NCBI GenBank assembly: GCA_015178975.1 | Contig: WHVD01000235.1 | Coordinates: 1 to 64,000 of the forward strand | Length of the DNA stretch: 64,000 nt | Source: Hysterangium stoloniferum | Taxonomy: Eukaryota > Basidiomycota > Agaricomycetes > Hysterangiales > Hysterangiaceae | Direction of reading: 5' to 3' | Shown here: in pieces, positions 5,225 through 51,590 of the stretch | Position numbering within the stretch: position 1 is the stretch's first letter | How the letters are laid out: the number at the start of each line of letters is the position of its first letter | Notes under the pieces: model-generated | What the model was told of the DNA's origin: nothing | The model's input: only the letters and a program-made list of their open reading frames with translations | The model's database searches: none | Position numbers and translations under genes: made by a program

Positions 5225-5688
5225 AACGGTGGTGTCATTGTTCAGTATCTATTAGAATGTGGGTATTGTAAATAGGGCCTTGGTAGCTCAACGGTAGAGC
5301 GTAAGGTTCTTACAGTCCCTCTGACCGGGTAAGAGTCTTAAGGTTGTGGGTTCGACTCCCCCCTGAGGCAATATTTTTACCCCATTAAATTACGGGGCTC
5401 CTTCTTCCTACCAAGAGTTCCTATTGAACCAGAAACCAGATATATATATCTTTTTCGAAGCCTATGAAATACGGAACTAGCCATCAAGTACCAAACATCC
5501 ATATGCATAACTATGTAAAAGTTCAAAATTCGGACCCCAAGATATATCGACTTAGCCTATATGAATTTTTCGTTTTGTCATTGTAAATACTGGTACAACA
5601 AAAGGTGCAGTATGACAAATGTCTGAAATGCGGAAAAAAATAGCAGACTCAAATGTAGAACGTTACACCGGTGTTGTTGTTCAGTATT
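5225..5688 (+). repeat. tRNA-headed repeat array, unit 2
   Basis: The array resumes after the LTR with the standard joint GTTCAGTATCTATTAGAATG, a tRNA-Lys-like head (5277-5370) and the full body. It breaks off in the next joint at GTTCAGTATT, where the 11.5-kb element is inserted. The sequence continues at 17226. Confidence 0.75.
5277..5370 (+). tRNA. tRNA-Lys(CTT)-like sequence with intron
   Basis: This is the best-folding head in the window. It has acceptor GCCTTGG/CTGAGGC with wobble pairs, D arm GCTC/GAGC, anticodon stem TAAGG/TCTTA, and a loop with anticodon CTT. An intron of about 22 nt lies after position 37, and the T arm has GGTTCGACTCC. It could be transcribed by Pol III (A and B boxes present), but the shared flanks mark it as part of a repeat. 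Confidence 0.6.
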
Positions 5689-6363
5689 GGAGGGTGTTTA
5701 TAATTACTATAATCTCAAATATTTACTAATAAAAGTCTTATTTTTACAAAACTCCATCTTTAAATAGTGATATCTATTCTGAAACAATTATATCATCAAA
5801 AAATAACCATCAGAAATAGTTCTCCATATTACATCTTATACAACCCATAGTTATTTAACAAATTCCATTGTATATAATTTCCTTCCTTTTACAGATGCCT
5901 ACTAATACTTTTATTAGTACTTTGTTTTTTAAAAGTTGAAATGTAGTTATTTCCATGTAAAATATGTAAAATATTATTGGAAATTTTTCATATCACAGCT
6001 GTCTTTATTAAGTAAAACCCCCTATATATTCTGGGTATGTTGAATCAAGTAGAAATCTGTTCAGATTAACAGATCCATTCCGAAGTAATACATATGTATT
6101 TAGAGGTGCCAATAATATACATATGCATGAAATGGACTATCTAAAGGTATCTATTTTTTAAAAGTATTAGTGTTTCAAACTACTAATTCTTTTTATTGTC
6201 TACTTGTGTCCGGAAAGATTCTTTAGTTTGTAATGTATGAGAGAGTTTAAAACTTTTTGAAAGTTTTAAAAACCAAATTATGTTTGAATCACATCTCAGA
6301 TGTTTAAATGACCTTTAGAGTATATTAGAATTTGGTATACTTAATAGTTTTCAGATATCCTCC
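5689..6363. repeat. Terminal direct repeat R1 (675 bp)
   Basis: R1 begins GGAGGGTGTTTATAA and ends GATATCCTCC, so its own tips are a short inverted repeat (GGAGG/CCTCC). It looks identical to R2 throughout. Its inner edge lies 13 bp from the stop codon of the transposase gene, so on the minus strand it would serve as that gene's 3' flank. It has no ORF of note. Confidence 0.9.
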
Positions 6364-6376
6364 TACTGGAAGTTTA

Positions 6377-7732
6377 TCAAATTTCTTCTCCTTTCTTTTT
6401 CCAGTATTCATCTATACACTCTGTGGTATCAAAACTCCTCACTCCTTGCCAAGTTACATCTTCATATCCCTTCCATTTTACAAGGTACTCTCTGAACTTT
6501 CCTTTTCCTCTATGGTTTATTATTTCCTCAATTTCATATGCCTCATCTGTCCCATCCATATCTTCATCATCACCTAACTCCATACTCAGAAAATTTCTTT
6601 GAAGCTTGAGCATCTCCTGAGCATTACTTCTACTATCTGTCAATGATGGGAGATTTTCATATGTTTCAATATTTTCATCTTTCCAGTAGTCAAACTCTGA
6701 AGATAACCATGAAGAGTGATGAGGTTGAGGTTGAATACCACCTAAAATTACAAACTTCTTCACATTTAATAAGAGACATCCAAGCTTTAACTGGGTTGTG
6801 AATACCTCATCATCAGAAACTCTAACACCTCCTTCATTACTGAGCTTCTTAAATGTGGTAGCCAACTCTCCAAAAGTAGCTTCAATCTTAGACCTGAAAC
6901 TACCAAACATTTTGTTAAAGGTACTCTCTTCCTTTGACAATTCTATACCTTTTGATTTACGTATAGGTATACAGAAGTTAATCATATCTAATTCTGTATT
7001 ACTTGTTATCTTTGTAAGGTGCAAGGGATATCCCCCATCTAAAGCAATACAATCTAGTTTGTCTATATACTTTTCCAATTTCATCTTTACAAACATGACT
7101 CCATCTGAATTATCTTTACAGGGTGCTGACTTTGATGTGAATAGAACCATGCCATTTATATCAATACAAACTTGTGTCCGAAGTCCAGATTTCTTGAGTT
7201 TATATGAATACATATCTTCACTCTTCTCACCAATAACACTTGCTCTAGTATCATGACCATCTATCATTAATGTTATATGTCTAAACAATGGAGGATTTTT
7301 CTGTGCAGAATGAATGCGTATATCAATAGTTGAGAACATAGAAATGAGCATAGTTGAGATCCTTTTATCAAGATCATTACCTTGTTTTTCATAGAATTTT
7401 CTAAACATATCATAATAACTACTTCTAGGTATAAAGTTTCCCATATCATTTATAGAGCAGCCTTGAAGTAGTTGATATAGTATTAAAAGTCCTTTCTCCA
7501 CATTTCTATAGGGTCCAGGATAATCTTGGGTGGCAAAGACGACAACAAGGAAGAAAAAGACTGGAATAATACCAAGTCTCTGAAGAACAATATCCTTAAT
7601 GTGACTAATTTTATCAATAGGTTTGATATCAGACCTATGATACTTGGATGGCTTGATCTGAGGCCATTCCTTATAAAGGAACTTCCATTGTTGGTCCATT
7701 AACTTATTAAACTCCTCATTTAGAGGAGACAT
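6377..7732 (-). CDS. DDE transposase (DDE_Tnp_4-like) with C-terminal chromodomain
   Basis: This intact 451-codon ORF probably cuts and joins the ends of the enclosing element. The catalytic-type residues appear to be D158 (MIDGHDT), D232 (ALDGGY) and E284 (FRSKIEATF), with YSYKLKKSGLRTQ and FNKMFGSFR around them, as in the IS5/PIF-Harbinger-like DDE_Tnp_4 family. Residues 399-446 form a chromodomain (IEEIINHRGKGKFREYLVKW), which in chromoviruses steers insertion to marked chromatin. I recall similar transposases in arbuscular mycorrhizal fungi, but that is memory, not a search. The ATG at 7732 is the only good start, and a 179-bp divergent gap separates it from the next gene. Fusion of a chromodomain to a cut-and-paste-type transposase is unusual. 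Confidence 0.85.
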   Translation of the reverse strand: MSPLNEEFNKLMDQQWKFLYKEWPQIKPSKYHRSDIKPIDKISHIKDIVLQRLGIIPVFFFLVVVFATQDYPGPYRNVEKGLLILYQLLQGCSINDMGNFIPRSSYYDMFRKFYEKQGNDLDKRISTMLISMFSTIDIRIHSAQKNPPLFRHITLMIDGHDTRASVIGEKSEDMYSYKLKKSGLRTQVCIDINGMVLFTSKSAPCKDNSDGVMFVKMKLEKYIDKLDCIALDGGYPLHLTKITSNTELDMINFCIPIRKSKGIELSKEESTFNKMFGSFRSKIEATFGELATTFKKLSNEGGVRVSDDEVFTTQLKLGCLLLNVKKFVILGGIQPQPHHSSWLSSEFDYWKDENIETYENLPSLTDSRSNAQEMLKLQRNFLSMELGDDEDMDGTDEAYEIEEIINHRGKGKFREYLVKWKGYEDVTWQGVRSFDTTECIDEYWKKKGEEI

Positions 7733-7911
7733 TGGTATGGTAAGTATACAATACTAGCCAATTTGGAAATATTCAATTTAAGAGAGATAATTGAGGTTAT
7801 TGTTATTCTACTATATACATAGGTGTAATAATGAAAAATGAATTATTCCAACTCCAACTATCTTAGATAGGATATAAGCACATATCACTCTTACAATCTT
7901 TACAAATCAAT
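7733..7911. promoter_or_regulatory. Divergent promoter region inside the 11.5-kb element
   Basis: The 179-bp AT-rich gap separates the minus-strand transposase gene from the plus-strand gene block. A TATA-like GATATAAGC lies about 40 bp before the ATG at 7912, and CTATATACAT sits near the middle. Shared regulation of transposase and accessory genes would follow from this arrangement. This is inferred from position and motifs only. Confidence 0.4.
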
Positions 7912-8391
7912 ATGTCTACTTGTTCAACATCACTCCTTATTCAACACACTGCTTATAACTGCTTTGTTAGGGACAAAGCAGTAACTATTACAAGAACTAG
8001 GGAACCAAACCCTTTTGTTCCACAACACTTTCAAATGCCAATTGTTGGTCCTAAGAAATACACATATTATATTAACTATGATGATCTGGAACTAAGTCCT
8101 CCATACAAATTTCAGGATAAGGTTGATTTTCCATTTCTCTCTGAAATGATGGGGTATTACAAGTTTATAGGCCTTGAACCAATCCCATTGAGATCATATG
8201 ACAATAGAATACAAATGTATAATGCTGTATTTACTCATCCAAACATGGCATTCATAGATAAAATCAGTTTTGAGGTGTTTATACCTTTCAGAAAAAAATT
8301 AGATGAATATGAAGAAAGAGTTGAAGAAGTTTTAATATCTTCTGGTTGGTGGAAGGGACTACTTTCTTATTTCTTTGTTTGTTGTTTCTAA
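7912..8391 (+). CDS. Unknown 159-aa protein
   Basis: The intact ORF begins at the first ATG after the divergent promoter. I do not recognise the family. The middle is rich in aromatic residues (KKYTYYINYDDLELSPPY), followed by a charged helix (FRKKLDEYEERVEEV) and a hydrophobic tail ending in Cys-Cys-Phe. It is followed after 94 bp by the nuclease-like gene on the same strand. The two could be one protein joined by an unrecognised intron or frameshift, because the last ~12 residues look unlike the rest. The only context for a role is the element itself. Confidence 0.5.
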   Translation: MSTCSTSLLIQHTAYNCFVRDKAVTITRTREPNPFVPQHFQMPIVGPKKYTYYINYDDLELSPPYKFQDKVDFPFLSEMMGYYKFIGLEPIPLRSYDNRIQMYNAVFTHPNMAFIDKISFEVFIPFRKKLDEYEERVEEVLISSGWWKGLLSYFFVCCF

Positions 8392-8485
8392 ATGTATTAG
8401 CATTTGACTGTAAATTTTAAAAGTTACAATCAATTTAATAGAGAATATTGAAAATTTCTGGATATTAATTAGATAAGTAAGTCTA

Positions 8486-9100
8486 ATGGAGCAAATCTTA
8501 AAGATATCTGTGAATGCTGCTGAAAGTGCTTCTATTAACCCTGACAACTTAGAATGCTTTTGGTATGCACCATGGAATGTTAGACTAGTATCACTTTTAC
8601 AACCACCATTATTGGTTAATCCCCAACTATCCTTACAATATAGTATAACCAATAGGGATGATGTAGAGATACCTAAGATATTTATACCAGACTTTGTTGT
8701 TATCCATTATAAGAAGGAAGCACAAAGTCTATATGAATGTAAATATTTGATAGTGGAAAATAAGAGGTTAATTAATCCAGGAAAGTTAGAAGAACAAGTA
8801 GAAAAGGCAGAGGATCAGTTAAAAGAATACATGCAGGTAGTCTTTCTAGATGAGGACTATCATGGGATATTTGGAATAGTCTCTGTAGGAAGATTTTGGA
8901 AATGGTACAGATTTATTAGGAAAGATACTTCTAAGAGTCACAAGTCTAAAACTTCATGGGGTAATAAGAGTTATATCCCTAGTGATGAAGAAGAGGATGA
9001 AGTATTTGAAATAGAATATAAATCTAAAATACTTGATATTATGGATAATAATTCATTTGATCAACTTAAATCTAAAATTAGAAACACCTTCTTAAACTGA
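8486..9100 (+). CDS. PD-(D/E)XK nuclease-like protein
   Basis: The 204-aa product carries the spacing of a PD-(D/E)XK nuclease core. IPDFVVIHY (P68-D69) is followed about 20 residues later by LIVENKRL (E91-x-K93). A helix with QLKEY (111-115) and a strand GIFGIVSVGRFWKWYRF come next, as in type II restriction-endonuclease-like folds. The tail is acidic and then basic (SDEEEDEVFE). Such a nuclease could nick or resect DNA during transposition. ISL2EU-type transposons are known to carry a YqaJ nuclease of the same fold beside their transposase, so there is precedent. The next gene starts 17 bp after the stop. The fold call rests on motifs only. Confidence 0.55.
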   Translation: MEQILKISVNAAESASINPDNLECFWYAPWNVRLVSLLQPPLLVNPQLSLQYSITNRDDVEIPKIFIPDFVVIHYKKEAQSLYECKYLIVENKRLINPGKLEEQVEKAEDQLKEYMQVVFLDEDYHGIFGIVSVGRFWKWYRFIRKDTSKSHKSKTSWGNKSYIPSDEEEDEVFEIEYKSKILDIMDNNSFDQLKSKIRNTFLN

Positions 9101-9117
9101 AATTTTAAAAGCTCTAC

Positions 9118-9471
9118 ATGATGAAATTAGATAATATGAACTTCCCTAAGGTACTTGGATATAAAGTTAGAAAAGAAAAGATCTTGGAACAGTGTAGACG
9201 ACATCATATAACTACAGAGAGTGGCTACTTGGGAGATATTAAGAGGTTAATAAGAAGAAGTGGATGTCCAATAACATTCAATATCCAGAAACATGAAGAT
9301 GCTCCTAAGGGTGAAGGTGGAATATTTATCATGTGTATCTATGAATTTTCTCATCCTAAAGAGGAAGTAAATATTGAGGACATTTTATCAAGATTTCCAT
9401 CTACATTTGAAGAAATAAAAAGAGATCTTGGAATAGTTGGAGACCCTCAAATTTATTTAGCAGAACCCTAA
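9118..9471 (+). CDS. Unknown 117-aa protein
   Basis: The small intact ORF has two adjacent ATGs (9118 and 9121). I do not recognise it. It is basic at the N-terminus (KVRKEKILEQCRRHH), with a GDIKRLIRRSG segment suggestive of a short helical DNA- or nucleic-acid-binding piece, and an acidic C-terminus. It begins 17 bp after the nuclease-like gene, so co-expression is likely. The large inverted repeat starts 61 bp after its stop. Confidence 0.45.
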   Translation: MMKLDNMNFPKVLGYKVRKEKILEQCRRHHITTESGYLGDIKRLIRRSGCPITFNIQKHEDAPKGEGGIFIMCIYEFSHPKEEVNIEDILSRFPSTFEEIKRDLGIVGDPQIYLAEP

Positions 9472-9531
9472 TTATTTCCCCATAAATACCTCTTTTAAAA
9501 GAAATTTCAACTAACCTATTTACCATAATCT

Positions 9532-10112
9532 CTCTTTTTAAAAGTAATCCAAAAATCCTTTAAAATCCCATAATAAAGATTAAAAATTAATAAAGGGTAG
9601 TAGTGGTGACATAGGCTTAGGGGCCAGGGCCCTAGTTAATTTTAATGGTTCTTTTACCCCAATAAATTACCCAAATTTCAGTTGTCTTCTTACCATAATT
9701 ATTCAGAAGGGCTGTAGCTATTACCATCCAACCTTTTCTATTTTCAGGATTTACCAATATCTCTTTCTTAGATCTTCAACAACAATAATATCTATTTAGC
9801 AAGTTAGAGACTATTTCATTTAGTAAGCTAGGAACTGTATTTGAATTATTAATAGAATTTCTGAAAAGGGGAAGATAGTTGAAACATTGGTAAATCCTGA
9901 AAATAGAAAAGGTTGGATGGTAATAGCTACAGCCCTTCTGAATAATTATGGTAAGAAGACAACTGAAATTTGGGTAATTTATTGGGGTAAAAGAACCATT
10001 AAAATTAACTAGGGCCCTGGCCCCTAAGCCTATGTCACCACTACTACCCTTTATTAATTTTTAATCTTTATTATGGGATTTTAAAGGATTTTTGGATTAC
10101 TTTTAAAAAGAG
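9532..10112. repeat. Perfect long inverted repeat (227-bp arms, 127-bp loop)
   Basis: Arm 9532-9758 (CTCTTTTTAAAAG...TTACCAAT) and arm 9886-10112 are exact reverse complements by eye. They enclose a 127-bp unique loop. The repeat lies exactly between the plus-strand genes ending at 9471 and the minus-strand genes ending at 10174, so transcripts from either side could read into it and fold into a long hairpin. No ends, TSD or gene mark it as an independent mobile element. Confidence 0.9.
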
Positions 10113-10173
10113 GATTTATGATAGAGTTGGAAGTTAAAGGTGTATGGTAATTTTAAAATATTATAGTGATAGT

Positions 10174-10488
10174 TTAAGGATCCTCTGTTGTTCTTATATA
10201 TTCAACTAATTTTTCTGCCATTTCATCATCTATATTTACCCTGGAAAATAATTTACGTTCAAGATCTTTTCCAATACAGAGAAGGGAGAACACAACATCA
10301 CTACCACAAGATTCCTCACTAAATTTTGATAATGATCCTTTCTTGATGAGTTTTATATTGAGCTCAACAAATGCTACAAGGATATCTTTCATCTTAGAAT
10401 CTAATGACAATGATAAGACTATTAAACTACATATCTCATTTATATGTTGTTCATTAAGATTTGTGATATTAGTCTCAAAGAGGAGCAT
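10174..10488 (-). CDS. Unknown 104-aa protein
   Basis: The intact small ORF is predicted to be mostly alpha-helical (ICSLIVLSLSLDSKMKDILVAFVELNIKLIKK) and ends with an acidic C-terminus. I do not recognise it. It lies 31 bp downstream of the 520-aa gene on the same strand, which suggests co-transcription, and it converges on the large inverted repeat. Confidence 0.45.
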   Translation of the reverse strand: MLLFETNITNLNEQHINEICSLIVLSLSLDSKMKDILVAFVELNIKLIKKGSLSKFSEESCGSDVVFSLLCIGKDLERKLFSRVNIDDEMAEKLVEYIRTTEDP

Positions 10489-11156
10489 GCTACTAGAGAA
10501 GTAGTAGATGGAACTTTTTTCATTTTATATGTATATCTTTCTGTCCTTGTCTTTTTACTATTCTACCAGTTCTGATATAGGTCTTCTCTTTTATATCCTT
10601 TACAACTTTTTGTAAAGATTCTCCACATCTTACCTTCAATACTTCTGAATTTTTGTCTAAGACTTCTATAACAGTGCAATTCTTTCCCCTATATAAAAGT
10701 TGACCTTTTGATATAACTTGATATTTTGAATTTTCTTTAAGAATTGAGTATCCTGCCTTATAACTAGATACCCTCAAATCACTTATCTCTTCTAAATTTT
10801 TACTAACTTTATGAATTGGGACAAGGGGAGGTGATTTTTTAGTTATACGAGTATCTACCCAACCAAGTTTTACTCCTTTGTATTCCACAAGTCCTATATC
10901 ACTTGGTGAAAATGAACTCTCAATCCTAGGATAGAGTCCTCCTCTGGGACCAGGTATAAGTGTAATCCCCTTTTGTGACCTTTTGTATTCCTCCACTATG
11001 GTTATCCCATCATCGACCCTAACAAATTTGGTAGTATTTCCATTAAAACTATAGTTAGAAACTAATTGAATTATATCTTCCTTATTTACATCTTTTTGGA
11101 AGCCTCCTTGGATCTTTCCTGTTAAAGAATTCCACCAATGACAATATGTGAAAAAC

Positions 11157-11546
11157 TGTAAGCCTGGCCACCTTACCACATACGTCATCACCAACCTCTC
11201 CCATCAACCACTCATTGTTCCGCCACTTAGCACCCTTGTGCCTTATCATGTGGTCATCATCACCAACCTCTCCCATCAGCCACTCATTGATCCGCCACTT
11301 TATTGTTAAGTAGCACCCCTGTGCCTGATCATACGGTTCCTTGTTCTTCCACCCCATTCGCCTTGACTCTCTATATAAAACCCCATATCCTATAGTGATA
11401 GGATATCTTCTCCTTAACCATTAATCCTTTCCCCACTCTTCCCTAGGGAACCTCGCATTCACCTTGTATCCTACTGATATGTAAAAATAAAGAAAACTTA
11501 GTCCTGTCCGTGTTGACCGAGTGAGGCTGATACCGACAGCCTTACA
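11157..11546 (+). repeat. 5' LTR of young LTR element
   Basis: The LTR begins TGTAAGCCTGGCC and ends ACAGCCTTACA. It contains an imperfect tandem duplication of about 85 bp (ACCAACCTCTCCCATCA twice), a TATA box CTATATAAAA followed about 40 bp later by the inverted pair TATCCTATAGTGATAGGATA, and an AATAAA signal near the end. Confidence 0.9.
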
Positions 11547-13402
11547 CTTTTTTTTTGACATCGACTTTGCTTTTCTGCAATGCAAACACGTCACTTCGAC
11601 CCGTTCACATCCATTTATTTTTCCATCCGACATCCTCATTCGACTCTCGCAACCGTAATTTATCATTCTGCTGATTTCACCCACGTTCAACACCTTCGAG
11701 TTATTGCACATACAAGCATCATCTTTTCCGTCATCGTCAACTGCCATTTTGAAACGCTTCATAATCATAACTTCAACTTCATGTCACACTCGCAGTTGTA
11801 CTCATAGTCGCACACACACTTGCTGCCAGTATCGCACTTACCACTGTCTAATGGTCAGACAACGTTATTGTCGAACCAATTGAACCGCCCCATGCTTGGC
11901 CCACACCCGTGAACCGTCCATCCTGCCTCGCTTAACCGACACACCAACACCATTACTTACCCGTCTGGAAACGAGAAGGAGACGCCACCTTGGACCACCT
12001 CCTCTCCTCATAGACTCCTTCTCAGACACCACACTCACACCGCCCTCTACCTCAATGCCAATTATCGCCGACTCGCACTCTTCAGAAAGCGAAACCGATA
12101 CAGACACTGAACGTGCTCCTCACACCTCGAGGCCTCGTCACTACCACAACTGACGGACAAAGAACAGAGGCTACTACTGTAGGACCATCAAGCCAACCAT
12201 TCTTGGCCTGGCCCCAACCCTTGCACATCGCATACCTCTCGATGGCCATGCAGGCACACCTCACACTACTCCTATATCTTGCCTTCCGTCTACACCGTTA
12301 CTCGCTCGCTCGGAGACAGAAGGAGAGCCCAACTCAGACTACCTCCTCTCCTTGTTGAACTACTTGTGCTTCGTGTCTGTCCCACTACGACACATCATCG
12401 CCTCTATCCACTACAGCACGTATCACATCCGCCACCCTTCAACATCCCTTTCAACGACCGTCGCTGCACTTCGGCGCATCATCGCGTCTGTTCACGTCTG
12501 TCCATCACTCAGCACATCGCCGGGGCTGGTATCGCATCTGCCACCCTCAATGTCTCGACACACCGTTGAACCAACTCCATTTCGGGATACAGCTGCGTCA
12601 GCTCCATTATCTTATCGGCGCCGCATTCAACACCTTCCATGCACCCAGAACCTGCTAGCAACTTCAGTCGGCATTGATTTCAACGTCGGCTCACAATACT
12701 TCAACGGATAACCGCTCCCTTACCAAAGCGAACAACGAAGCTCAATAGGCACAACCATACGCAACGTACACCCAAGGAAAAGCAGAAACCTACAATGCAG
12801 TTTTCCACCACCGTCCTCACTATCCTTGTCCTTGTCAATGCCTCACTTGCAATTTAAATCGTCGCTCGTCAAGGCCTCATGGATTTCATCGCTTGCCCCA
12901 AACAGCACGCATCAACACTGCTTGCATCGACCCATTCTTCACATGACAAGATAGGATTAGAAACGAGGAAGAATCTGTGAGATGTAGAGGACTTGTAGGT
13001 AGACAGCGATATCCAATAGTTCTCTCCCTCCATCACATCATCACAAACGGAAACATTCCGTCATAACGTCGTAGATAGAGATATCCACACAATCTCTCGT
13101 ATCCATGCTGTCAACTCTAACCTCATCATCCCAAGCATCACCCGAACCTATGGTCGAAAGATGGTGTTCCAGAGCCTCTATCACAACCTCTCCACCATCA
13201 TTCAGTGCTTCGAGTTTAACCCAGCATTACAGTATTCATCCGCAACATACCCAGGATTTCAACTGTTACCGCTACCACGGCCAGTATTACCACTACCGCT
13301 ACTGTTACCACTACCACGGCCAGTATTACCACGGCCACTACCATTACCGCTACCGCCACTGCTCCTGCCATCTCTACCACCGCTACTGCCACCGCACCAA
13401 TA

Positions 13403-13670
13403 CATCTGTAAGTGCCAACAGCGGCTACAACTACCGCTACTGCACCACTACATCCGTAAGTGCAACAGCGGCCACAACTACCGCTACCGCACCACTGCAT
13501 CCGTAAGTGCCAACAGCGACCACAACTACCGTTACCGCTACCGCACCACTACATCTGTAAGTGCCAATAGCGACCACCACTACCACTACCACCACCGCTA
13601 CCGTTACCGCACCACTACATCTGTAAGTGCCTACAGCGACCACAACTACCGCTACCGCTACCATCACCGT
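13403..13670 (+). repeat. Tandem array of about five 48-66-bp units
   Basis: Units start ACATCTGTAAGTGCC or similar and continue AACAGCGACCACAACTACC, with a variable number of CCGCTA words. Unit length varies by short indels, so no frame stays meaningful across it. Each unit contains GTAAGT, which resembles a splice donor. Confidence 0.7.
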
Positions 13671-15209
13671 AACCACTACCGTAACCACTACCGCTGCCGC
13701 TCACTACCGCTGCCACTGCATCCATCGGCATTACCGCCCACTACCGCTGCCACTACATCCATCGGCATTACCGCCCACTGCCGCTCACTACCGTTGCCAC
13801 TACATCCGTCGGCATTGCCGCACCACTATATCCACTATGCCTCGGTCACCATCTACATCGACGCCACTGCTCACTCGATCGGAAACAAGAAGGAGAGCCC
13901 AGCTTGGACTACCTCCTCTCCTTGTCAATCCCTCCACGGACGCCACAACCACATCGGCCAACCCGACTGCATCGGAGCCTTCAGAAACTGAAACCGAAGC
14001 TGACACTGAATACACAACCTTTCAAATGTACACTACACCTTTCAAGGCTTCACCGACAAAACAAGCCAAGAAGTCGGCAAACTGAAATAATGTCCAATGC
14101 TTACCACTGGACGATACATACCATTAGTCCATCCGAGTTGATCTTCTCCCTGTTCTGGATTATGCCTTTGCCATACTGGACGCCGAAAAAGGTTCATTGT
14201 TCCTCATCCCGTCACGGCTCCTACAGCGTCTCGTCTGATCAAACCTCTAACTCTTCCGCGTCAACGTCACACATGCCTTCTTCGCCCACCGGCTCAAGCG
14301 TGTCTGTTGGCATATCAATGCGTTCAACCCCACCCCGCTACGTTTACGTTTCAACCCCTCTAAACAGTACTGAACCATCTCATCTTTCCAGTCCCGTGTG
14401 TTTCACCCAAGAACATGTAAAGACACAGCTGCCGCCAAGTCACCCTTGATCTAAATGAACTTTCCTGCACCCTCACACGTGCCAAATTCAACGGTACCCC
14501 CGAAACTGTCCCAGCTCCAGAAAAGTCAACCTTGTACGCTCCTTGTCATTGTTACGCCACCACTGCGATTATTTCGTTTCCCGCGTCTGTCCCAATATAA
14601 CAAGTGTCAATACTCTTGATTCGGGTTTAGCTGCTCTTCTTGCATGCCACATCGCCCATCAGGACACTCTCCGTCGAAACAATTCCATCCAATGCCGGTC
14701 CGCAGGGCATCAAAAGTGCATTCACGCTTCGCGGCAAGCCCACGATCCGAGGTGGTCTTGTAATGCACATTATGCCGGGATGCTCACGACCCTTTCTGGC
14801 CTCTTACAAACTCACCAATCCGCACCAATGAAATCACGTCGAAATCGTAAATATCACATAACCGGCTTCACGCACCCCCCTGGCCGCCAACTCTCCATCG
14901 GCCCCTCCGCTCGAAAGTATTCGCATCACCGGGCCCCATCTCCCCATTCTACACTTCGAACCTGCAAGTTCAACAACGTACACTATATACTCCGCCCCCA
15001 CTTTCCTTGTGGTCGGTTTCCTTTATACAACATACACATAGTGTTACCGCGCATTGCCCCTGATGTTCGCCATCAGTCCTTACCTTGGCTCCGAACCTTT
15101 CCACAAGACCATCTTCCCCATTCCTCCGGCACAAGCTTCTCTGATTTCTCCGTCAGCTCTGTCAAGAACCCCAGAAATGTCATTGAACTTTAACCCTTGT
15201 AAATTTTTC

Positions 15210-15223
15210 AGAGGGGGGAAGGG
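15210..15223 (+). promoter_or_regulatory. Polypurine tract of young LTR element
   Basis: AGAGGGGGGAAGGG lies directly before the 3' LTR start at 15224. It fixes the element's orientation as plus and matches the tract at 2312-2325. Confidence 0.75.
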
Positions 15224-15613
15224 TGTAAGCCTGGCCACCTTACCACATACGTCATCACCAACCTCTCCCATCAACCACTCATTGTTCCGCCACTTAGCAC
15301 CCTTGTGCCTTATCATGTGGTCATCATCACCAACCTCTCCCATCAGCCACTCATTGATCCGCCACTTTATTGTTAAGTAGCACCCCTGTGCCTGATCATA
15401 CGGTTCCTTGTTCTTCCACCCCATTCGCCTTGACTCTCTATATAAAACCCCATATCCTATAGTGATAGGATATCTTCTCCTTAACCATTAATCCTTTCCC
15501 CACTCTTCCCTAGGGAACCTCGCATTCACCTTGTATCCTACTGATATGTAAAAATAAAGAAAACTTAGTCCTGTCCGTGTTGACCGAGTGAGGCTGATAC
15601 CGACAGCCTTACA
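15224..15613 (+). repeat. 3' LTR of young LTR element
   Basis: This 390-bp copy looks identical to the 5' LTR, ends CAGCCTTACA, and is followed by the AAAAC target duplication. It includes the same internal duplication, TATA box and AATAAA. Confidence 0.9.
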
Positions 15614-16550
15614 AAAACCTTCTATCTTCCAAGTAAATCATTATTATTGATTTGGAATAAATGTTATCTACAAGTGCTTTCCATTGTTCTTCAAAAGAAC
15701 TTCTGTAGAATCTACATCCACTAAGGTTGTTTCTAATACTGATAAAGTTGTCTATATACCATGACTTAGAAAATACTTCTCTACCATAGAACTTAATTTC
15801 AACTCTTGTCATTCCTACATTCTTTAATCTTTCTAGTGATTGTAACATTGAATTGGTAGGATCAACATATAAATTATGGATTCTAGATCCCAGAGTAGTC
15901 ATAACATCACAACTTTCTAACATTTGTACAAATTTATTGTATACTTTGATCCTACATGAGTGATCTTCATTGTAGAAGGATATACAATTGTCTCCAACCT
16001 TTTTTCTATCATCAACAATATCTTCTACCTTTATTCCATTATTTAATATATGTTTAAGAACATCTTTTCTAGTAGTAACATAGGGTATATCTTGGGATAT
16101 ATCTATATCATGTAAGATAATTTCATCACAAATAGTTTCTCTTAGGAACTTTATTATATCTTCAATAGAAACTTCAGATAGTGAAATTTTGTATGAGATG
16201 TAAGGAGTATTTGTAGGTGCGATATCATTATTCTTGAGAGTATCTGAGTGTAGTAATTTGATCTTAAAGGAAAGTGAGAAATATACTTTACATTTTCTAT
16301 ATATATCATTTCTAAAGTCCCCCCCAATAGACCATAGAATTACATTGTCACAAAAAATATGTGAAGTGTTAGAGGATTCAAAAGATAGTCTAATAGCTTC
16401 TAAAGGATTGTGATATTTGGTATCCAGAACATCAGGTATACTGAACTCTTTCATAATTTCAATAGATTCTTTAAGCACTTCCTTTGCCATTGGATAATGT
16501 AATAGATACTTTCTCATGGCACTCTTTTCAATTTTATGAAACATCTATTA

Positions 16551-17225
16551 GGAGGGTGTTTATAATTACTATAATCTCAAATATTTACTAATAAAAGTCT
16601 TATTTTTACAAAACTCCATCTTTAAATAGTGATATCTATTCTGAAACAATTATATCATCAAAAAATAACCATCAGAAATAGTTCTCCATATTACATCTTA
16701 TACAACCCATAGTTATTTAACAAATTCCATTGTATATAATTTCCTTCCTTTTACAGATGCCTACTAATACTTTTATTAGTACTTTGTTTTTTAAAAGTTG
16801 AAATGTAGTTATTTCCATGTAAAATATGTAAAATATTATTGGAAATTTTTCATATCACAGCTGTCTTTATTAAGTAAAACCCCCTATATATTCTGGGTAT
16901 GTTGAATCAAGTAGAAATCTGTTCAGATTAACAGATCCATTCCGAAGTAATACATATGTATTTAGAGGTGCCAATAATATACATATGCATGAAATGGACT
17001 ATCTAAAGGTATCTATTTTTTAAAAGTATTAGTGTTTCAAACTACTAATTCTTTTTATTGTCTACTTGTGTCCGGAAAGATTCTTTAGTTTGTAATGTAT
17101 GAGAGAGTTTAAAACTTTTTGAAAGTTTTAAAAACCAAATTATGTTTGAATCACATCTCAGATGTTTAAATGACCTTTAGAGTATATTAGAATTTGGTAT
17201 ACTTAATAGTTTTCAGATATCCTCC
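16551..17225. repeat. Terminal direct repeat R2 (675 bp), likely promoter for the 520-aa gene
   Basis: R2 looks identical to R1 (5689-6363). Its inner edge is 6 bp upstream of the ATG at 16544, so on the minus strand it holds the promoter of that gene. R1 lies just past the stop of the last minus-strand gene. This promoter/terminator placement is what LTRs do in retroelements, although the sequence ends GGAGG...CCTCC are not LTR-like. Confidence 0.9.
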
Positions 17226-17752
17226 ATTGTTAGAATGCAGGTCTTACAATTAACGCCTTGTTAGCTTAGTCGGTTGAGCATTAGACTTGTATAGTTGCTC
17301 CTCCTGGGTAAGACTGTTAGGGTTGCAAGTTCGAATCTTCCCTGAGGCAGCATTTCTCTCCCGTTAAATCACAGGCTCCTTCAAGAGTTACTATTGAACC
17401 ATATATGTATATCTCTTTTTCCAAGTGCATTAAATATGTTTAAGAATTATGGAACTAGCCATCAAGTACCAAACATCCATATGCAGAGCTATATGGAAAT
17501 TCAAAGTTCACACCCCAAGATGTATTGACTTAGCCTTATGAATGTATCTTTTTGCTACTGTATAAACTAGTACAACAAAATTAAGTGCATTATGACAAAT
17601 AAGTCTGGATTGGGGAAAAAATAACCCATTCAAATCTAGAATGTTACAAGGGTGGTGTCGTGGTTCAGTATATATTACGATGTGAATCTTATGAATCATG
17701 GGGCTTCTGCATATATAGCAGGGGTGTTAACCATTACACCACCTGACCCTGG
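17226..17752 (+). repeat. tRNA-headed repeat array, continuation after the 11.5-kb element
   Basis: ATTGTTAGAATGCAGG completes the joint broken at 5688. A second type of tRNA-like head follows (17255-17349), then the body with the marker CACCCCAAGATGTATTGACT at 17511-17530, and another joint. Then comes a reversed tRNA-like piece (minus strand GGTGGTGTAATGGTTAACAC, about 17690-17750) with a good A box but no clear B box. The solo LTR at 17753 cuts it there. Confidence 0.65.
17255..17349 (+). tRNA. tRNA-like head, second type (decayed)
   Basis: Acceptor GCCTTGT/CTGAGGC, D arm GCTTAGTCGGTTGAGC and B box AAGTTCGAATCTT are visible. The central region of about 35 nt (TTGTATAGTTGCTCC...) does not give a clean anticodon stem, so the identity is uncertain. 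The same head occurs, broken, on the minus strand at 52225-52596 and 55072-55089. Confidence 0.4.
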
Positions 17753-18590
17753 TGTTACGACCCGTTCCCAGATGTTTCAATATCCAACTTCTGATCTCCG
17801 ACTTCCGACTTCCGATCTCCGACTTCCGACTTCTGATCTCCGACTTCCGACTTCCGATCTCCGACTTCCGACTTCCGATCTCCGACTTCCGACTTCCGAT
17901 CTCCGACTTCCGACTTCCGATCTCCGACTTCCGACTTCCGATCTCCGACTTCCGACTTCCGATCTCCGACTTCCGACTTCCGATCTCCGACTTCCGACTT
18001 CCGATCTCCGACTTCCGACTTCCGATCTCCGACTTCCGACTTCCGATCTCCGACTTCCGACTTCCGATCTCCGACTTCCGACTTCCGATCTCCGACTACG
18101 GGACATCACAGTTACCATATCATCCGTGTTCTTCCCTTGTTCTGCATTTGGTAATTTGTCCGTTGACAAGTATTCACTCGTTTGTTTGTTGTATTCCCGT
18201 TTCGGAATATTGTCTCCCTAATATGTCTTATTGTATTTCTGTTTTAAGAACACTTCCATTTCCGTCTTATTATGGTCTTAGTTTGTAGTACAATAACGAG
18301 TAGACTTATATTAGTTTCCGCGAATTTGTACTTTACCTTAGATCTGATATCGACTTAGTTTCTTATTCCTTCTCCCGTCTTTCTGTACGCTTGATATTTG
18401 GAACTCTTTGGAACTCTGAATATCCATATCTTCCATTGTAAGTCTTACCTCTGAAATTAAGGACTTTGAGCATTTGCGTAGAGGTGCAGCACATAAGCTG
18501 AAGCCGACGTCCTGACCCTATCCGATAGTTCCTGACTTCCCGGTGACTTTCCAATAGTTCCGGAATAAGTTCCCGACACAGCACTTAATA
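17753..18590 (+). mobile_element. Solo LTR (838 bp) with internal 21-bp satellite, TSD CCTGG
   Basis: It begins TGTTACGACCCG and ends GCACTTAATA (CA mutated to TA), and is flanked by CCTGG at 17748-17752 and 18591-18595. Apart from the satellite it matches, in reverse, the LTR at 59301-59843. It contains a block ATAAGCTGAAGCC shared with the other LTRs at 18922, 37713 and 54061, so these families are distantly related. Confidence 0.85.
17781..18098 (+). repeat. 21-bp tandem array inside the LTR, about 15 copies
   Basis: The period is three 7-mers of the form YTCCGAY (TTCCGAC, TTCCGAT, CTCCGAC). Because 21 is a multiple of three, several frames on both strands stay open, giving repetitive ORFs that are not genes. 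Copies differ by only a few T/C changes, so expansion is recent. Confidence 0.95.
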
Positions 18591-23960: not shown

Positions 23961-25555
23961 CAGTGACCCAAAAAAGCATCTGGATGTTTGGTGAAATTGG
24001 AAAGATAGGTTTACAGCTCCAGAAATAAAATAGATAAAATTCTGAATACATCAGAGGTAAGAGGTATACATCTGACCTACATGATGACATAGGCATGATA
24101 TCATAGCTTTCCTTATCAGGAAAGTAGGAAATTAATAATGGACATGGTGCATCCGGACACTTTTTTTGCTCTTGTAATTAATTACTAGTTTTTACCAGTT
24201 TCAGTATTTAGTGTACCCCCCCTTGGCCTTTAGTACTGCAGCAACCTTTCTAGGCATGCTCTTGATCAATTCAAGGCATTTCTCCTTTGGAATACCCTCC
24301 CATTCCACCTCCACTCTCTCCCAGAGCTCCAATATGCTCTTGGATGCCTCAGGGTATGTTCCAAGCCTTCTCTTCAACTCCCACCATAAGTGTTCTATTG
24401 GATTCAGGTCTGGAGACTGTGCCGGCCGGTCTAAAACCTCCACCTGATGATCCTTGAACCAATCCTTGGCCAACTTGCAAGTGTGTTTAGGGTCATTGTC
24501 CTGCTGGAAGACAAACCTTTCCCTGTCCATCCCACAATACTCCACTGTTTTGAAGATATAGTCCTCCAATATGTCCTTGTACATCTCCCCATCCATCCTC
24601 CCATCTATCTTGCACATGTACCCCACACCATGTGCTGTCATACATCCCCAAATCATTAGACTCCCCCCTCCAAATTTGATAGTTCCATTGATATGCTGCT
24701 GAGTGAGTGCAGAACCTGGTCTTTTCCATGCCCACAACCTCCCATCAGAGCCCAAACGATTTATTTTGGTCTCATCTGAGAAGATAACCCTAAACCAGTC
24801 CTCCTCAGTCCAATGCTGGTACTTGATAGCAAACTCATATTGAGCCTTGATGTGTCGACAGGCAAGAAGAGGTCTTTTGGCCTTCACCACAGCCTTCAAA
24901 TTCTCTTTCTTCAATGCATTTCTAATTGTCTGTGTGCAGACATTGAGGGAGAGGTGGGACTTGGCTTGGGAGGCATTATCAACCTGTCCAGAGGTGATAG
25001 AACAAGCCAGGTGGTGATGATCCCTGGGGGAGAGTTTGGGAGGACAACCTCTGGAAGGTGTTGGAAGTGGACCAGGGAGTTGGCAGCAAATTTCTGATAC
25101 TGTAGAGTGCCCAATATGAAGTTTAGAAGCAATTGTTCTGCAGGAGTGACCCTCCTGGAGAAGAGAAATGACAGAGAGCCTTGTTTCAGTAGAGTGCTTC
25201 TTCATCATGTGGTGGGGGGGTGAATTGAGGCAAAGGTTCATGTAAATGTGTTATTTAAACATGTGGTCACATGACATTGTTGAACCTAACCAGAAATTCC
25301 CACAGTTATATGAACCTTAGTTGAGTTTCATGTATCAGTTGACAGAGAAAAAAAAATGTCCGGATGCACCATGTCTATTGTTCATTTCCCACTTCCCTGA
25401 TAAGGAAAGCTATGATGTCATGCTTATGTTATCATGTAGGTCAGATGTATACCTCTTACCTCTGATTTATTCAGAATTTTATCTATTTTATTTCTGGAGC
25501 TGCAAACCCATCTTTCCAATTTCACCAAACATCCGGATGCTTTTTTGGGTCACTG
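23961..25555 (-). mobile_element. Intact Tc1-type DNA transposon (1595 bp), TSD TA
   Basis: It starts CAGTGACCC and ends GGGTCACTG, with TA on each side (23959-23960, 25556-25557). The terminal inverted repeats are about 208 bp (23961-24168 and 25348-25555) with few mismatches. Each repeat carries an outer site (AAAAGCATCYGGATG) and an inverted inner copy (GCATCCGGACA) at its far end. The single transposase ORF is uninterrupted, so the copy may be active. It is nested in the dead Ty3 element's 3' region. Confidence 0.93.
24201..25241 (-). CDS. Tc1/mariner-family transposase (DD34E)
   Basis: The 346-aa intact ORF is a Tc1 transposase that would excise and reinsert its element at TA. The N-terminal part (about 17-110) has helix-turn-helix features (SLLQEGHSCRTIASKLHIGHSTVSEI). 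The catalytic triad is D156 (IFSDETKI), D248 (FQQDNDPKHT) and E283 (SPDLNPIEHLWWELK), with exactly 34 residues between D248 and E283. Length matches Tc1 family members of about 340 aa. Translation could start at the first ATG (25241) or at a Met 11-12 codons later. The stop lies 33 bp inside the left inverted repeat edge. Confidence 0.95.
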   Translation of the reverse strand: MNLCLNSPPHHMMKKHSTETRLSVISLLQEGHSCRTIASKLHIGHSTVSEICCQLPGPLPTPSRGCPPKLSPRDHHHLACSITSGQVDNASQAKSHLSLNVCTQTIRNALKKENLKAVVKAKRPLLACRHIKAQYEFAIKYQHWTEEDWFRVIFSDETKINRLGSDGRLWAWKRPGSALTQQHINGTIKFGGGSLMIWGCMTAHGVGYMCKIDGRMDGEMYKDILEDYIFKTVEYCGMDRERFVFQQDNDPKHTCKLAKDWFKDHQVEVLDRPAQSPDLNPIEHLWWELKRRLGTYPEASKSILELWERVEVEWEGIPKEKCLELIKSMPRKVAAVLKAKGGYTKY

Positions 25556-44127: not shown

Positions 44128-45216
44128 TCAAAATTTTACCCCCAACAGTTGTGAGCAAAATCGTTTCAATGATTCCATGATAGCCAACAACTCCTGTTCA
44201 TGAACAGGATAGTTCTGTTGAGCCGAGTTGAACTTCCCTGACCAGAATGACACTACTGCAGCAGTGCTAAGATCTTCACTTTGACTGAGAATGCCACTTG
44301 CTCCTGTTAAACAAGCATCTGTCACCAAGTTAATGGTTTGGTGACCTGGTGAGTAGTCCAATGCAATTTGATAGCTGTCACGATGGCCCTGAACAATACA
44401 CTTGATATCTTCGAAAGCATGCTGCTCAGTAGCCCCCTACCACCACTGCCTGTTTACTCCTGTCTGGGCTGCTAAAATAGCCATTGTGATTCAAACTCCC
44501 TCACAGTTGTTAGCAAGATATCCTACAGCCCCCAAAAATCCAGCCAGAAGTTGCTTATTCGTAGGAATCTTCCAGTTGGCCACTGTGTCAACTTTATGTG
44601 TGTCCATTTATATACCTTTATCGTTAATCACATGCCCTAAAACCTGTAACTCTGAAGCAAACAAGTGCATCTTGTTGACAGCCAGATATAATTTTTCCCA
44701 ATGGAGCACTGTAAACACAGTGTGTAGATGCTTCACATGATCACTGATAGAGTCAGAATATACAACAATATCATCCAAGTATACATCCATGAAAACACCG
44801 ATATACAGCGCAAATATGTGGTTCATCAATGTCTGGTAAGTAGAAGGACCATTGCAATCCCTGATTTGTAATGTTAAACTTTCCATAGTGCCATCCAGAG
44901 AGGTGAACAATGTCTGGTGAACATGCTCGGGAACCACTTGGATCTGCTCATAAGCATCCTTCCCATCTATCAAACTCCAATACTTATGATGCACAACATT
45001 TCGTAGAATGGCTTCAATATCTGGCAAGGGGGTAGCCAGCTTATATGTGTTAGCATTCTGCTCATGCTTATCCACTACAGTGCATATCCACAAAGTGCCA
45101 TCAGCTTTTGGAGGTTTAGGAATAATGAGCATAGGGCATGTATTTGTTCCCGTGGCAACCCTCCACCTCCCATTCTTGATATATGTGGTTTTCTTTTCAT
45201 GCCATAGCTTCCTCAT
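44128..45216 (-). pseudogene. Ty3 reverse transcriptase and RNase H core
   Basis: ORF 45216-44608 has NTCPMLIIPKPPKADGTLWICTVVD, LIDGKDAYEQIQV and the intact catalytic box VYLDDIVVYSD. ORF 44361-44128 has the RNase H start (LVTDACLTGASGILSQ) and HEQELLAIMESLKRF. A stop-containing gap (44607-44362) separates the two. Unlike the other Ty3 element, the reverse transcriptase active site is unaltered here. Confidence 0.9.
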
Positions 45217-45243
45217 TGCTTCGGGACATTTGGATGGTCTCCA

Positions 45244-45831
45244 TTAGTAAGCTTTGGCATCGTCAATGATTGGAATGGTATGATTAACAGCCCATAATGG
45301 AGGCAATGCTGTTGATGCAGTGTCTGGGTCAAGGTCAGCTGCTTCAGCATGTAAATCTGCCCTTAACCTCTCTAACTCATCATCAAAAATTTCCGCCACT
45401 GCAGAATGGAGAGTCTCAATGGTATCTCCTTCCATAGGGAGTGGTAGAGGTGACCCAATGTTGACCCTTGTAGGATTCAGCCCCATCATAACTTGATGTT
45501 GAAATATGAATAGAGTCCCTAATATCAAGTCGTATGAATCAAGGTTAGCAACATCAAAATGCCGAGTACAATTGATGTTCTGATATGAAAACTGAGCAGT
45601 TGCTGAATAATTGATTTTTGACCATGATCTGTGAACAGCAAGCTGGATAGTAAGTGGTTTTACTAGTGGATCCTTGACTACCTGCAGCTGATAGACTAGC
45701 ATCGTTGACATGAAGTCTGCAAGTGATCCACTATCAATTAAAGCTTTCACTGGTCGTTCATTAATAAATGCCTCAATGACCACAGGTTTTGGCATGCAAC
45801 AAGTAAAGTCTTTGGTTGCATTGAAGTACAC
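45244..45831 (-). pseudogene. Ty3 aspartic protease (second element)
   Basis: The retropepsin motif ALIDSGSLADFMS near residue 30 and YDLILGTLFIFQHQV near residue 105 bracket a typical protease domain. An acidic linker to reverse transcriptase follows. It is open for 195 codons but starts mid-protein. The gag frame before it is broken. Confidence 0.8.
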
Positions 45832-49984: not shown

Positions 49985-51590
49985 CTAGCGAAATGGGTCA
50001 TCTGAGATCGGATCAGCGCCACCTTCACAACACTCAGTCTTCGGAGCCATAGGCTGTGTGGGAGGAGGAGTTGATAGATCGCGCTGCACACGGTCACCAT
50101 GCTGATTCCAACCACTGTTCTGTAACGCAGTCGTTAATTCTGATTCCATCCAGTCTGAGCACTCCAAGGCAGATAGTTTCTCCAGGAACTCCCCCGCACG
50201 GAGTGCAGAAAGAATGATTTTATTATCCACTGGCTTACCGAGGACTACAGATTTGACATCCGATGATCCTTCCTTCTCGAAGAGTTGTTTATATTGAGCA
50301 ATTTCTGTTGCTTTCGGCGGATTTTCGTATCGTACTGCAAACGTTACCGCCAATGCTCCGATTAACTCCCTCAACGGGACATTAAATAAACGAGAAACTT
50401 GGAAGGGGTCGGAGAAGCACACTTCCACTTTCTTCCTATCTCCTGCTTTCGCAGCTCCGTCAGGGTCCAGATAATGATGGTCAAAAGCGGCATGGAGCAT
50501 GTCGGTGAGCGCACTCTTGAAAAAGCCTTGCTTGGTATATCTCAAGGCAATCCAGAGGAGGACGTAGAAGAAGGATTCCAAGTCATCAGCACGGTCGGGG
50601 ATCGCTGGTAGCTGCCCGGGGGTGGGAACCACCAGCAAACGAGCAGCCATGAATTGCCAGGTACCCTGTCCATGGAAGAAACAGAGAGAAGGGAATCACA
50701 AAACGTCAAACGGGAATTCAAAAGAATTTTTAATAGGATCGGGACAGTAGGGGAGGAGGTACTCACAGTCCTTTCAGTGTGCGCTTGTCTTTGATGTATT
50801 TGATTAAGCATTTTGCAGAGATCCCAGTCAATTAACAATCCACCACCTGTGGCAGTGATGAGAATATTGCCTGAGCTGATATCTCGGTGAAAATTTTCAG
50901 CCTTGTCATAAGCGTCCCCATGGGCTGTTGAAAGGGAATCAACGCCAATTCTGTTAAGAGACTGATATACGTACCTACGATGGCGTCTCTTACTGCAGTC
51001 ACCATCTCCTTTGTATCCCTAAAATCGCTTAGAGACCTCCCGATTTCGTTCAAAACGAGTCGATAGTGCTGCAATCGCCTGAATGGTGAAGGACGTTTTA
51101 CCATTGATGAATCCTGCGTCTTGGTACACTGCTGTAAAACATCACATCCCTCCTTGCACGTGCAGATATTCCTGACCCCATGTTTCTTCAACTGCTCATA
51201 TATCATGTGTTCGGGGCTTTGCGTGGCGGAAACGATCCTCCATGTGTCCTTGAGAAGTACCAGCTTCCCAGTTTCGATACAGTAGGCCTTGAAGACACGG
51301 GTCGAGCGGCCGAGGGGGATCCCACAGCCATGTAGGTGGGACAATAAAATACGTAAGTATGGCCTCTTGGATCAAGTTGAACATGAAACAGTCGGCCATG
51401 GTCTTCGAGATTGAGGACCTTTTGGCCTTTGCCGCGGCAGGGTGGTTGGGTGGAAATTCTCTGGCGGTAGTATCGACGCCACGTGCAGCAGGGCTCGCGT
51501 GATTAAACCGCCAGAAGAACTGAAGGATTTGAGAGACGGACTTTTTCCGTCACGATAGCGCCACTCCTATCGCCCTAAGATACATAGTTC
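49985..51590 (-). pseudogene. FunK1-type fungal protein kinase, 5'-truncated with frameshifts
   Basis: Three exons are read on the minus strand: about 51590-50975, 50924-50767 and 50665-49985. Introns 50925-50974 (GTACGT...CAACAG) and 50666-50766 (GTGAGT...GGACAG) restore the kinase core exactly. The core has LLKDTWR, RLVLNEIGRSL, FHRDISSGNIL (catalytic HRD), LLIDWDLCK (DFG equivalent) and GTWQFMAARLL, then DDLESFFYVLLWIA. FunK1 kinases are expanded in mushroom-forming fungi; their substrates are largely unknown. The first exon needs three one-base corrections (near 51525, 51430 and a C5 run near 51317) to keep FFWRFNHASPAARGVDTT and GRSTRVFKAY in one frame. Homology stops at about 51585, so the N-terminus is lost. 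The catalytic half is intact. Confidence 0.85.

Follow-up and report, generated by a model that had tools for sequence, protein, structure and literature searches.

A Probable Composite-Like PIF/Harbinger-Type DNA Transposon Framed by 675-bp Direct Repeats in the Fungus Hysterangium stoloniferum

Introduction

In the basidiomycete Hysterangium stoloniferum, a stretch of 64,000 nucleotides (assembly GCA_015178975.1, contig WHVD01000235.1, positions 1 to 64,000, forward strand; hereafter the window) carries at positions 5689-17225 an element bounded by two long direct repeats, which very probably represents a composite-like DNA transposon of the PIF/Harbinger type; each 675-bp repeat would be a complete substrate of the transposase, and either a solo repeat or the full unit would be moved via its outer tips. 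Two nested mobile units, the repeat and the full element, have their outermost ends and the length of the target duplication in common; we infer that the encoded transposase acts on the GGAGG/CCTCC tips, and likewise how the pair of repeats stays matched.

Structure of the Element and Its Full Copies

The outline of the element is given by the following features:

5686-5688, no strand, left target-site duplication ATT (direct reading)
5689-6363, + strand, left 675-bp terminal direct repeat with tips GGAGG...CCTCC (junction found at 20 places in the assembly)
6377-7732, - strand, transposase of 451 amino acids (aa), DDE_Tnp_4 with a C-terminal chromodomain (Pfam matches)
11157-15613, + strand, nested insertion of long terminal repeat (LTR) type, separate from the element, with LTRs at 11157-11546 and 15224-15613
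16551-17225, + strand, right 675-bp terminal direct repeat, with the same sequence as the left (repeat found at 13 of the 14 right ends fetched)
17226-17228, no strand, right target-site duplication ATT (direct reading)

The two repeats align with 0 mismatches, end exactly at GGAGG and CCTCC and are bordered on the outside by ATT on either side, as an earlier note on this DNA, made from the sequence alone, had stated; the inner flanks are unequal, TAC following the left repeat and TTA preceding the right one. The same note had taken the target to be continuous apart from the insertion; indeed, joining the two flanks through a single ATT gives a sequence that aligns over the point of insertion to a paralogue without interruption elsewhere in the window (55320-55786, minus strand), with 78% identity over 475 columns, a 1-base gap at the junction and a 3-base gap near it. 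The left repeat lies 13 bases from the stop codon of the transposase gene, and the right repeat occupies the position expected for the promoter of a large accessory gene.

The interval 5689-17225, put forward in the earlier note, marks the true ends of the element and includes, without naming it, a nested insertion of 4,457 bp with identical 390-bp LTRs (TGTAAG...CTTACA), which splits the last gene of the element, the large accessory one, and is bordered by a 5-bp duplication (AAAAC at 11152-11156 and 15614-15618). Its interior holds CCACTACCG-type repeats, and its longest open reading frame (ORF), of 276 aa, is repetitive. The insertion is younger than the element around it and is probably a non-autonomous LTR element recently inserted into the transposon; once its 4.46 kb are subtracted, the element proper measures about 7.1 kb, and the uninterrupted copy on contig C441 measures 7,001 bp.

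Copies were searched for in the same assembly (111 Mb, 554 contigs), in which the left junction between repeat and transposase gene was found at 20 places, with none in the control. Both ends were examined at nine of these loci (C152, which is the window, C113, C71, C441, C1, C442, C212, C464, and C537); the other eleven are C332, an allele or duplicate contig of the window copy having the same left flank, C177, for which no right repeat was found, and nine loci with unexamined right ends. The left tip is gone in C212, and both outer tips are retained in the remaining eight of the nine copies; in seven of these eight the outer 3-bp flanks match (ATT, AAT, ATT, ATT, ATA, ATA, and TAA), compared to 19% of matches when the flanks are crossed between the seven matching copies (a control that leaves out C464). 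At the right ends, the repeat adjoins the accessory gene in 13 of the 14 cases fetched, in ten of them at full length, two of these ten forming the arms of what is probably an assembly palindrome on C441.

A chance origin of this arrangement is excluded because other copies show the same ends and duplications, which also bears out the earlier claims that this is one mobile unit and that further full copies with 3-bp duplications exist; the ends of the other copies do not lie elsewhere, and the second repeat was not created only here by local recombination or assembly, since it recurs in them. A local accident or an assembly artefact, to which one might be led by C332 with its left flank in common with the window and by the fold-back appearance of C441:4500-9850, is practically without probability, being refuted by the matching duplications at seven sites whose flanks differ from one another. 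Two chance insertions of a small element on either side of a group of genes were likewise considered and rejected, the outer flanks being duplicated and the inner ones not, with the junction present at 20 places. The segment C441:4500-9850 contains two copies of the accessory gene head to head with identical outer flanks and is probably a fold-back assembly palindrome.

Solo Repeats

The earlier description of the 675-bp sequence as a terminal repeat is right as to the ends of the element and too narrow otherwise, the same sequence being also a free-standing dispersed repeat. A first look gave 1,097 candidate places in the assembly, 40 of which were scored, and the left 28-bp tip of the repeat occurs with up to 3 mismatches at 444 places (the repeats of full copies included) and nowhere in the control. 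Among 30 loci from the first search, three belong to full elements as their ends (two from the window copy, one from C332), and the other 27 are solo repeats, for which the earlier note had proposed to look; an exact 3-bp duplication borders 25 of the 27, and one of the two without it, L024, has a changed tip and yields a TAG match if the last base of the tip may differ. Two solos share one position within a dispersed repeat; 282 copies of this dispersed repeat, at up to 3 mismatches, are unoccupied, with none in the control, and CAT, found once in the unoccupied form, stands on both sides of the solo. For the target of the window element itself, a short-pattern search for unoccupied copies gave 9 places against 4 in the control and is uninformative.

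Judged by their duplications and their numbers, the solo repeats behave like small mobile elements in their own right, and the full element like a composite. A tree of 50 repeats places 12 of the 27 solos in one clade devoid of full-element repeats (support 99/91, the bootstrap not having settled), and eight other places, none of them at a listed left junction, are 99-100% identical to the repeats of the C441 element; the clade and these near-identical places together indicate that solo repeats move on their own or did so until recently, and, judging from the sequences compared, the solos appear to have moved in bursts. An LTR-like cycle at the level of the chromosome, in which the repeat itself would never be mobile and all solos would be deletion products of recombination between repeats, predicts that solos retain the 3-bp duplications, as they do. 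It is nevertheless very improbable: 444 left tips, even with the repeats of full copies included, stand against 20 gene junctions, the solo-only clade has support, and the eight places of the C441 type would require as many recent full insertions, all of which have vanished.

Matching of the Two Repeats within an Element

Six elements have two full-length repeats, and in these the left and the right repeat differ at 0 (C152), 6 (C113), 1 (C71), 0 (C441), 14 (C1), and 5 (C442) columns, corresponding to an identity of 98.5-100% (mean 99.48%); repeats taken from different elements have a mean identity of 93%. The true assignment of left to right repeats is the best of the 720 permutations, whose mean is 94.40%, so that, by whichever mechanism, the two repeats of an element are renewed together, in the way LTRs are with every insertion.

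This matching bears directly on a Campbell-type integration, in which the transposase would move solos only and a circular replicon with one repeat would recombine into an existing solo. Such a process would yield the repeat-genes-repeat order within the duplication of the older solo, and solos identical to the C441 repeats exist; it predicts, however, that left and right repeats are as divergent as circle and solo, while the six copies differ at 0, 0, 1, 5, 6, and 14 columns, and for the C1 type, whose own pair is 98% identical, the other 38 places scored all stay at or below 96%. We consider it distinctly unlikely.

Transposase

The transposase matches PF13359 (DDE_Tnp_4) with an E value of 4.9e-10 and 39.7 bits (cut-off 24.8), and the chromodomain PF00385 with an E value of 2.1e-6; it gave no other Pfam match. 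Across 23 aligned transposase sequences D157 and D231 are invariant and E283 is conserved in at least 90%; these residues are the candidate catalytic triad. Its relatives, 120 of 314 being listed, include named ones from Mortierella, Apophysomyces, Cunninghamella, Rhizomucor, and others, and the closest among the matches listed are 75-87% identical. No reverse transcriptase and no polyprotein with integrase was found among the seven ORFs of the element that were tested, whereby a retroelement is rejected and the earlier assignment to a DDE transposase rather than a reverse transcriptase is upheld. In the same seven ORFs no Myb/SANT match was obtained at E values up to 1, and a scan of viral contigs with the transposase gave no confirmed match.

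Accessory Genes and Inverted Repeat

Between the transposase gene and the right repeat, the following features were recognized:

7912-8391, + strand, ORF-A, 159 aa, no assigned family (ORF and Pfam scan)
8486-9100, + strand, ORF-B, 204 aa, PD-(D/E)XK-like motif (IPDFVV ... IVENKR) (alignment)
9118-9471, + strand, ORF-C, 117 aa, no assigned family
9506-9763, + strand, left arm of an inverted repeat, 258 bp, between convergent genes
9881-10138, - strand, right arm of the inverted repeat, 258 bp
10174-10488, - strand, ORF-D, 104 aa, no assigned family
10520-11156, - strand, 3' portion of the large accessory gene, separated from the rest by the nested insertion (Rep_trans-like candidate)
15614-16544, - strand, 5' portion of the same large gene, with its start codon 6 bases away from the right repeat

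One structural type of the element (C113, C71, C1:504527, C442, C212, and C323:280848) lacks the ORF-A segment (window 7794-8430) and has a short overlap where the sequence rejoins. Next to a second, more distantly related family of transposases (C356, C141, C1:1534146, C268, and C112) the segment occurs again, with a DNA identity of 75-82%; by its distribution it would seem to be an exchanged gene cassette. The D...ExK residues of ORF-B are visible in five of the six aligned sequences, and one homologue gave a sub-threshold match to the N terminus of a TnsA-like endonuclease (E 0.0043, 18 bits, cut-off 26.5); five relatives were found, of which the two with names come from Ramaria and Hysterangium.

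The arms of the inverted repeat are 95% complementary, with a spacer of 117 nt, and both were recovered in seven of the eight other copies searched (at full length in C537, C177, and C464, at 122 bp each in C441; in C1, C113, and C71 the sequence fetched stops within the second arm); C51 has a single partial arm. The 258-bp inverted repeat is a possible replication origin, terminator, or source of double-stranded RNA.

The large accessory protein is uninterrupted in the C441 copy, where it comprises 512 aa from the first ATG; 72 relatives of it were found, and no precomputed Pfam domain is recorded for any of them; those with names come from Actinomortierella, Podila, Mortierella, Rhizomucor, and Apophysomyces. 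Several relatives of the transposase and of the large accessory protein have a common source, as do one relative of ORF-B and one of the transposase, which suggests, without proving it, that the genes of the element travel together elsewhere too.

The Large Accessory Protein and Rep_trans Initiators

Rep_trans proteins are characterized by a catalytic tyrosine in the motif YxKxx(E/Q) and by three acidic metal ligands located in the motifs N', I (RxD), and IV (W/LxRxE) (PMC4797284, PMC5714925, PMC6499999), and the family is said to appear restricted to bacteria, with a later extension to archaeal viruses (PMC13107129). In an alignment of 60 of the 72 relatives (the 12 left out being mostly fragments or near-duplicates), K181, Y183, K185, and Q188 are invariant in all 60 proteins, with the spacing of R177, Y179, K181, and Q184 of RepSTK1; the candidate metal ligands are D129 (59 of 60), E230 within TRxE (59 of 60), and D47 (57 of 58 ungapped rows). 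At a lax threshold, hhalign aligns D129, the tyrosine motif, and TRxE, unprompted, with their counterparts in inovirus and plasmid Rep_trans proteins; the match is not significant, the probability being below 2% and 11 of 400 column shuffles scoring at least as high. An expression for the ordered motifs, written after both families had been seen and therefore given little weight, finds 62 of the 72 relatives, none of 120 transposases, 2 of 14,400 shuffles, and only 7 of 17 Rep_trans proteins.

Searches by family models were negative. No match of the PF02486 hidden Markov model (HMM) was found among the 60 relatives, nor any relative via PF02486 in the organism's own genome; Pfam (60 relatives) and PHROGs and NCBIfam (7 relatives each) gave no convincing family, a SANT model was touched by 2 of the 60 at best with E 0.055, and no Pfam match to a His-Me finger endonuclease was present in the accessory ORFs or in the families listed for the 60 relatives of the large protein. 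No relative appeared in sequence searches of the PDB or in tblastn of plasmids and phages, the alignment gave no confirmed match in viral contigs, and M13 gene II protein, tried as a bridge, led only to one near-identical phage. Against an assignment to the Rep_trans family it must also be said that the arginine of motif I and motif II of Rep_trans are unmatched in the accessory protein. Family membership is thus not claimed; that the protein is a nickase of the Rep_trans type is a tentative proposal, based on its conserved residues, to which we give somewhat less than an even chance. Should it prove to be a rolling-circle initiator, it would represent an unexpected eukaryotic branch of a supposedly prokaryotic enzyme family, linking transposition and circle replication.

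Proposed Mechanism

According to the composite reading, the transposase would pair either both tips of one repeat, in which case the solo repeat moves, or the outermost tips of two repeats, in which case repeat, genes, and repeat move together; every insertion would duplicate 3 bp. For the renewal of the matched pair we prefer, at about even odds, a route through a circle: recombination between the repeats would produce a circle carrying one repeat and the genes, possibly acted on by the large accessory protein, and the transposase would reinsert it replicatively, in a cointegrate-like manner (compare the translocatable units of IS26), giving flanking direct repeats and a target duplication. 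In an alternative form of reinsertion, the one-repeat circle would recombine into a solo repeat; conversion from repeat to repeat would fit as well, and conversion following cut-and-paste is a possible, somewhat less favoured, way of renewing the pair.

A fuller version of the circle route, which we regard as rather unlikely, would make the element a transposon with two engines: a eukaryotic initiator of the Rep_trans type would amplify the one-repeat circle, and the Harbinger-type DDE transposase, possibly together with a TnsA-like nuclease (ORF-B), would insert it replicatively. If true, each insertion would receive a fresh and identical pair of repeats, that is, an LTR-like cycle without an RNA step.

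PIF/Harbinger elements are cut-and-paste transposons, which speaks for a rival reading as a pure cut-and-paste composite; the repeat-genes-repeat unit would be excised and reinserted in linear form and conversion alone would keep the repeats alike, with no circle and no role of the accessory genes in replication. The outer 3-bp duplications in seven of the eight copies with both tips agree with it, and conversion could yield matched pairs; it requires, however, efficient conversion in each lineage, and leaves unexplained the conserved large accessory protein, ORF-B, and the inverted repeat found in other copies. We consider this account somewhat less likely than not.

Several observations weigh against the composite element and its renewal through a circle. 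The inverted repeats at the tips are short: GGAGG is perfect over 5 bp, and of the first 11 positions 8 are identical and the other 3 are transitions. The flanks of C464 (CTT and TAT) differ, this copy having a deletion that reaches into its right repeat. The solos read are the best matches to the window's repeat and are thus biased towards its subfamily, and part of them may have arisen from full copies by recombination, like solo LTRs. The right repeat of C442 has a nearer match in a repeat of a different copy (99.85%) than in its own left partner (99.41%), and, identical solos being present for the C441 type, the matched pair of C441 alone does not exclude recombination into a solo. Finally, no abutted repeat-repeat junction (exact tips with 0-12 bases between them) was found, and there is no direct trace of a circle. 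Multimers of the form (repeat-INT)n-repeat were not seen either, though no systematic search for them was made.

Relation to Known Mobile Elements

The earlier note had supposed that the element might be an undescribed class of eukaryotic transposon; this part of it finds no support in that form, as KolobokP has the same plan. KolobokP elements, of the Kolobok superfamily, were described in seven animal phyla (Kojima & Bao 2022, PMC9587614) as repeat-INT-repeat structures with terminal direct repeats some 450 or 660 bp long, bearing their own short inverted tips, a His-Me finger homing endonuclease and common multimers, and a one-repeat circle integrating into a solo repeat, by recombination or by an unidentified mechanism, was discussed for them. 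Long terminal direct repeats (675 bp here), short tips, solos with duplications, and an interior DDE transposase are thus features in common; in contrast, the fungal element encodes DDE_Tnp_4 with a chromodomain instead of a Kolobok transposase, makes 3-bp duplications, and carries other accessory genes. The composite plan, with its direct repeats, tips, solos, and duplications, is therefore already that of KolobokP, and what differs is the transposase, the host kingdom, and the accessory genes.

With PIF/Harbinger (PHIS) elements the fungal element has in common the PF13359 transposase and the 3-bp duplications. Canonical members of that superfamily have inverted-repeat ends and usually a Myb/SANT protein, whereas the present element has short tips only and no Myb/SANT match. 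For the Nuwa families, inverted-repeat ends and a Myb/SANT protein are stated in PMC12730594. The pseudo-composite transposons and translocatable units of the IS26/IS6 type are similar in that direct repeats, themselves mobile units, flank passenger genes and a circle with one unit is plausible (the IS26 circle, or translocatable unit, is described in PMC9587614); they differ in that the transposase gene of the fungal element lies between the repeats and not within them, and in its eukaryotic host and its 3-bp duplication. The long direct repeats do imitate LTRs, as the earlier note had remarked: identical terminal direct repeats, solos, and genes packed up to the repeats are all reminiscent of LTR retrotransposons, from which the element is set apart by its GGAGG tips, its DDE_Tnp_4 transposase, and the lack of any reverse transcriptase found. 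As to Rep_trans initiators (PF02486; RepSTK1, phage RstA), the accessory protein resembles them in its K/R-x-Y-x-K-x-x-Q context and in candidate D, D, and E ligands in the same order, and departs from them in its length (about 510 aa), in a longer stretch between motifs III and IV, and in the absence of a significant HMM or profile-profile match.

No published example of this architecture of Harbinger type, in fungi or with the same accessory genes, emerged from the titles and the beginnings of abstracts of the papers listed, in a literature covering few subscription papers and neither preprints nor Repbase. The name KolobokP occurred in the literature searched only in Kojima & Bao 2022, and the passages searched in a 2025 study of TET/JBP-carrying DNA transposons of fungi do not mention such repeats as element ends.

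The occurrence of the LTR-like composite plan with another transposase superfamily and in another kingdom indicates that it is not peculiar to one animal lineage, and it is thus probably a stable solution. The way in which DNA transposons keep two identical direct repeats becomes testable by comparison, and what KolobokP and the fungal element have in common, namely, a mobile repeat, an interior transposase, and further genes including at least one nuclease-like gene, is likely to be the minimal machinery. Repeat annotation is likely to label the solos as miniature inverted-repeat transposable elements or LTRs and to miss the element.

Other Features of the Window

The site of insertion is a dispersed repeat that includes a tRNA-like part. 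A tRNA-Val-like sequence (Rfam tRNA, 50.6 bits) is located at 5277-5370, and a decayed relative of it, judged by eye, at about 17256-17349, inside the target repeat. An array of 21-bp units (TTCCGATCTCCGACTTCCGAC) lies 0.5 kb to the right of the element, at 17720-18160. Elsewhere in the window are an ORF for a Tc1/mariner-type transposase (DDE_3) at 24201-25241, pieces of a retroelement protease and reverse transcriptase at 44608-45831, and a fragment of a fungal protein kinase (PF17667) at 50832-51344, which, like the named relatives of the element's proteins, agrees with a fungal host.

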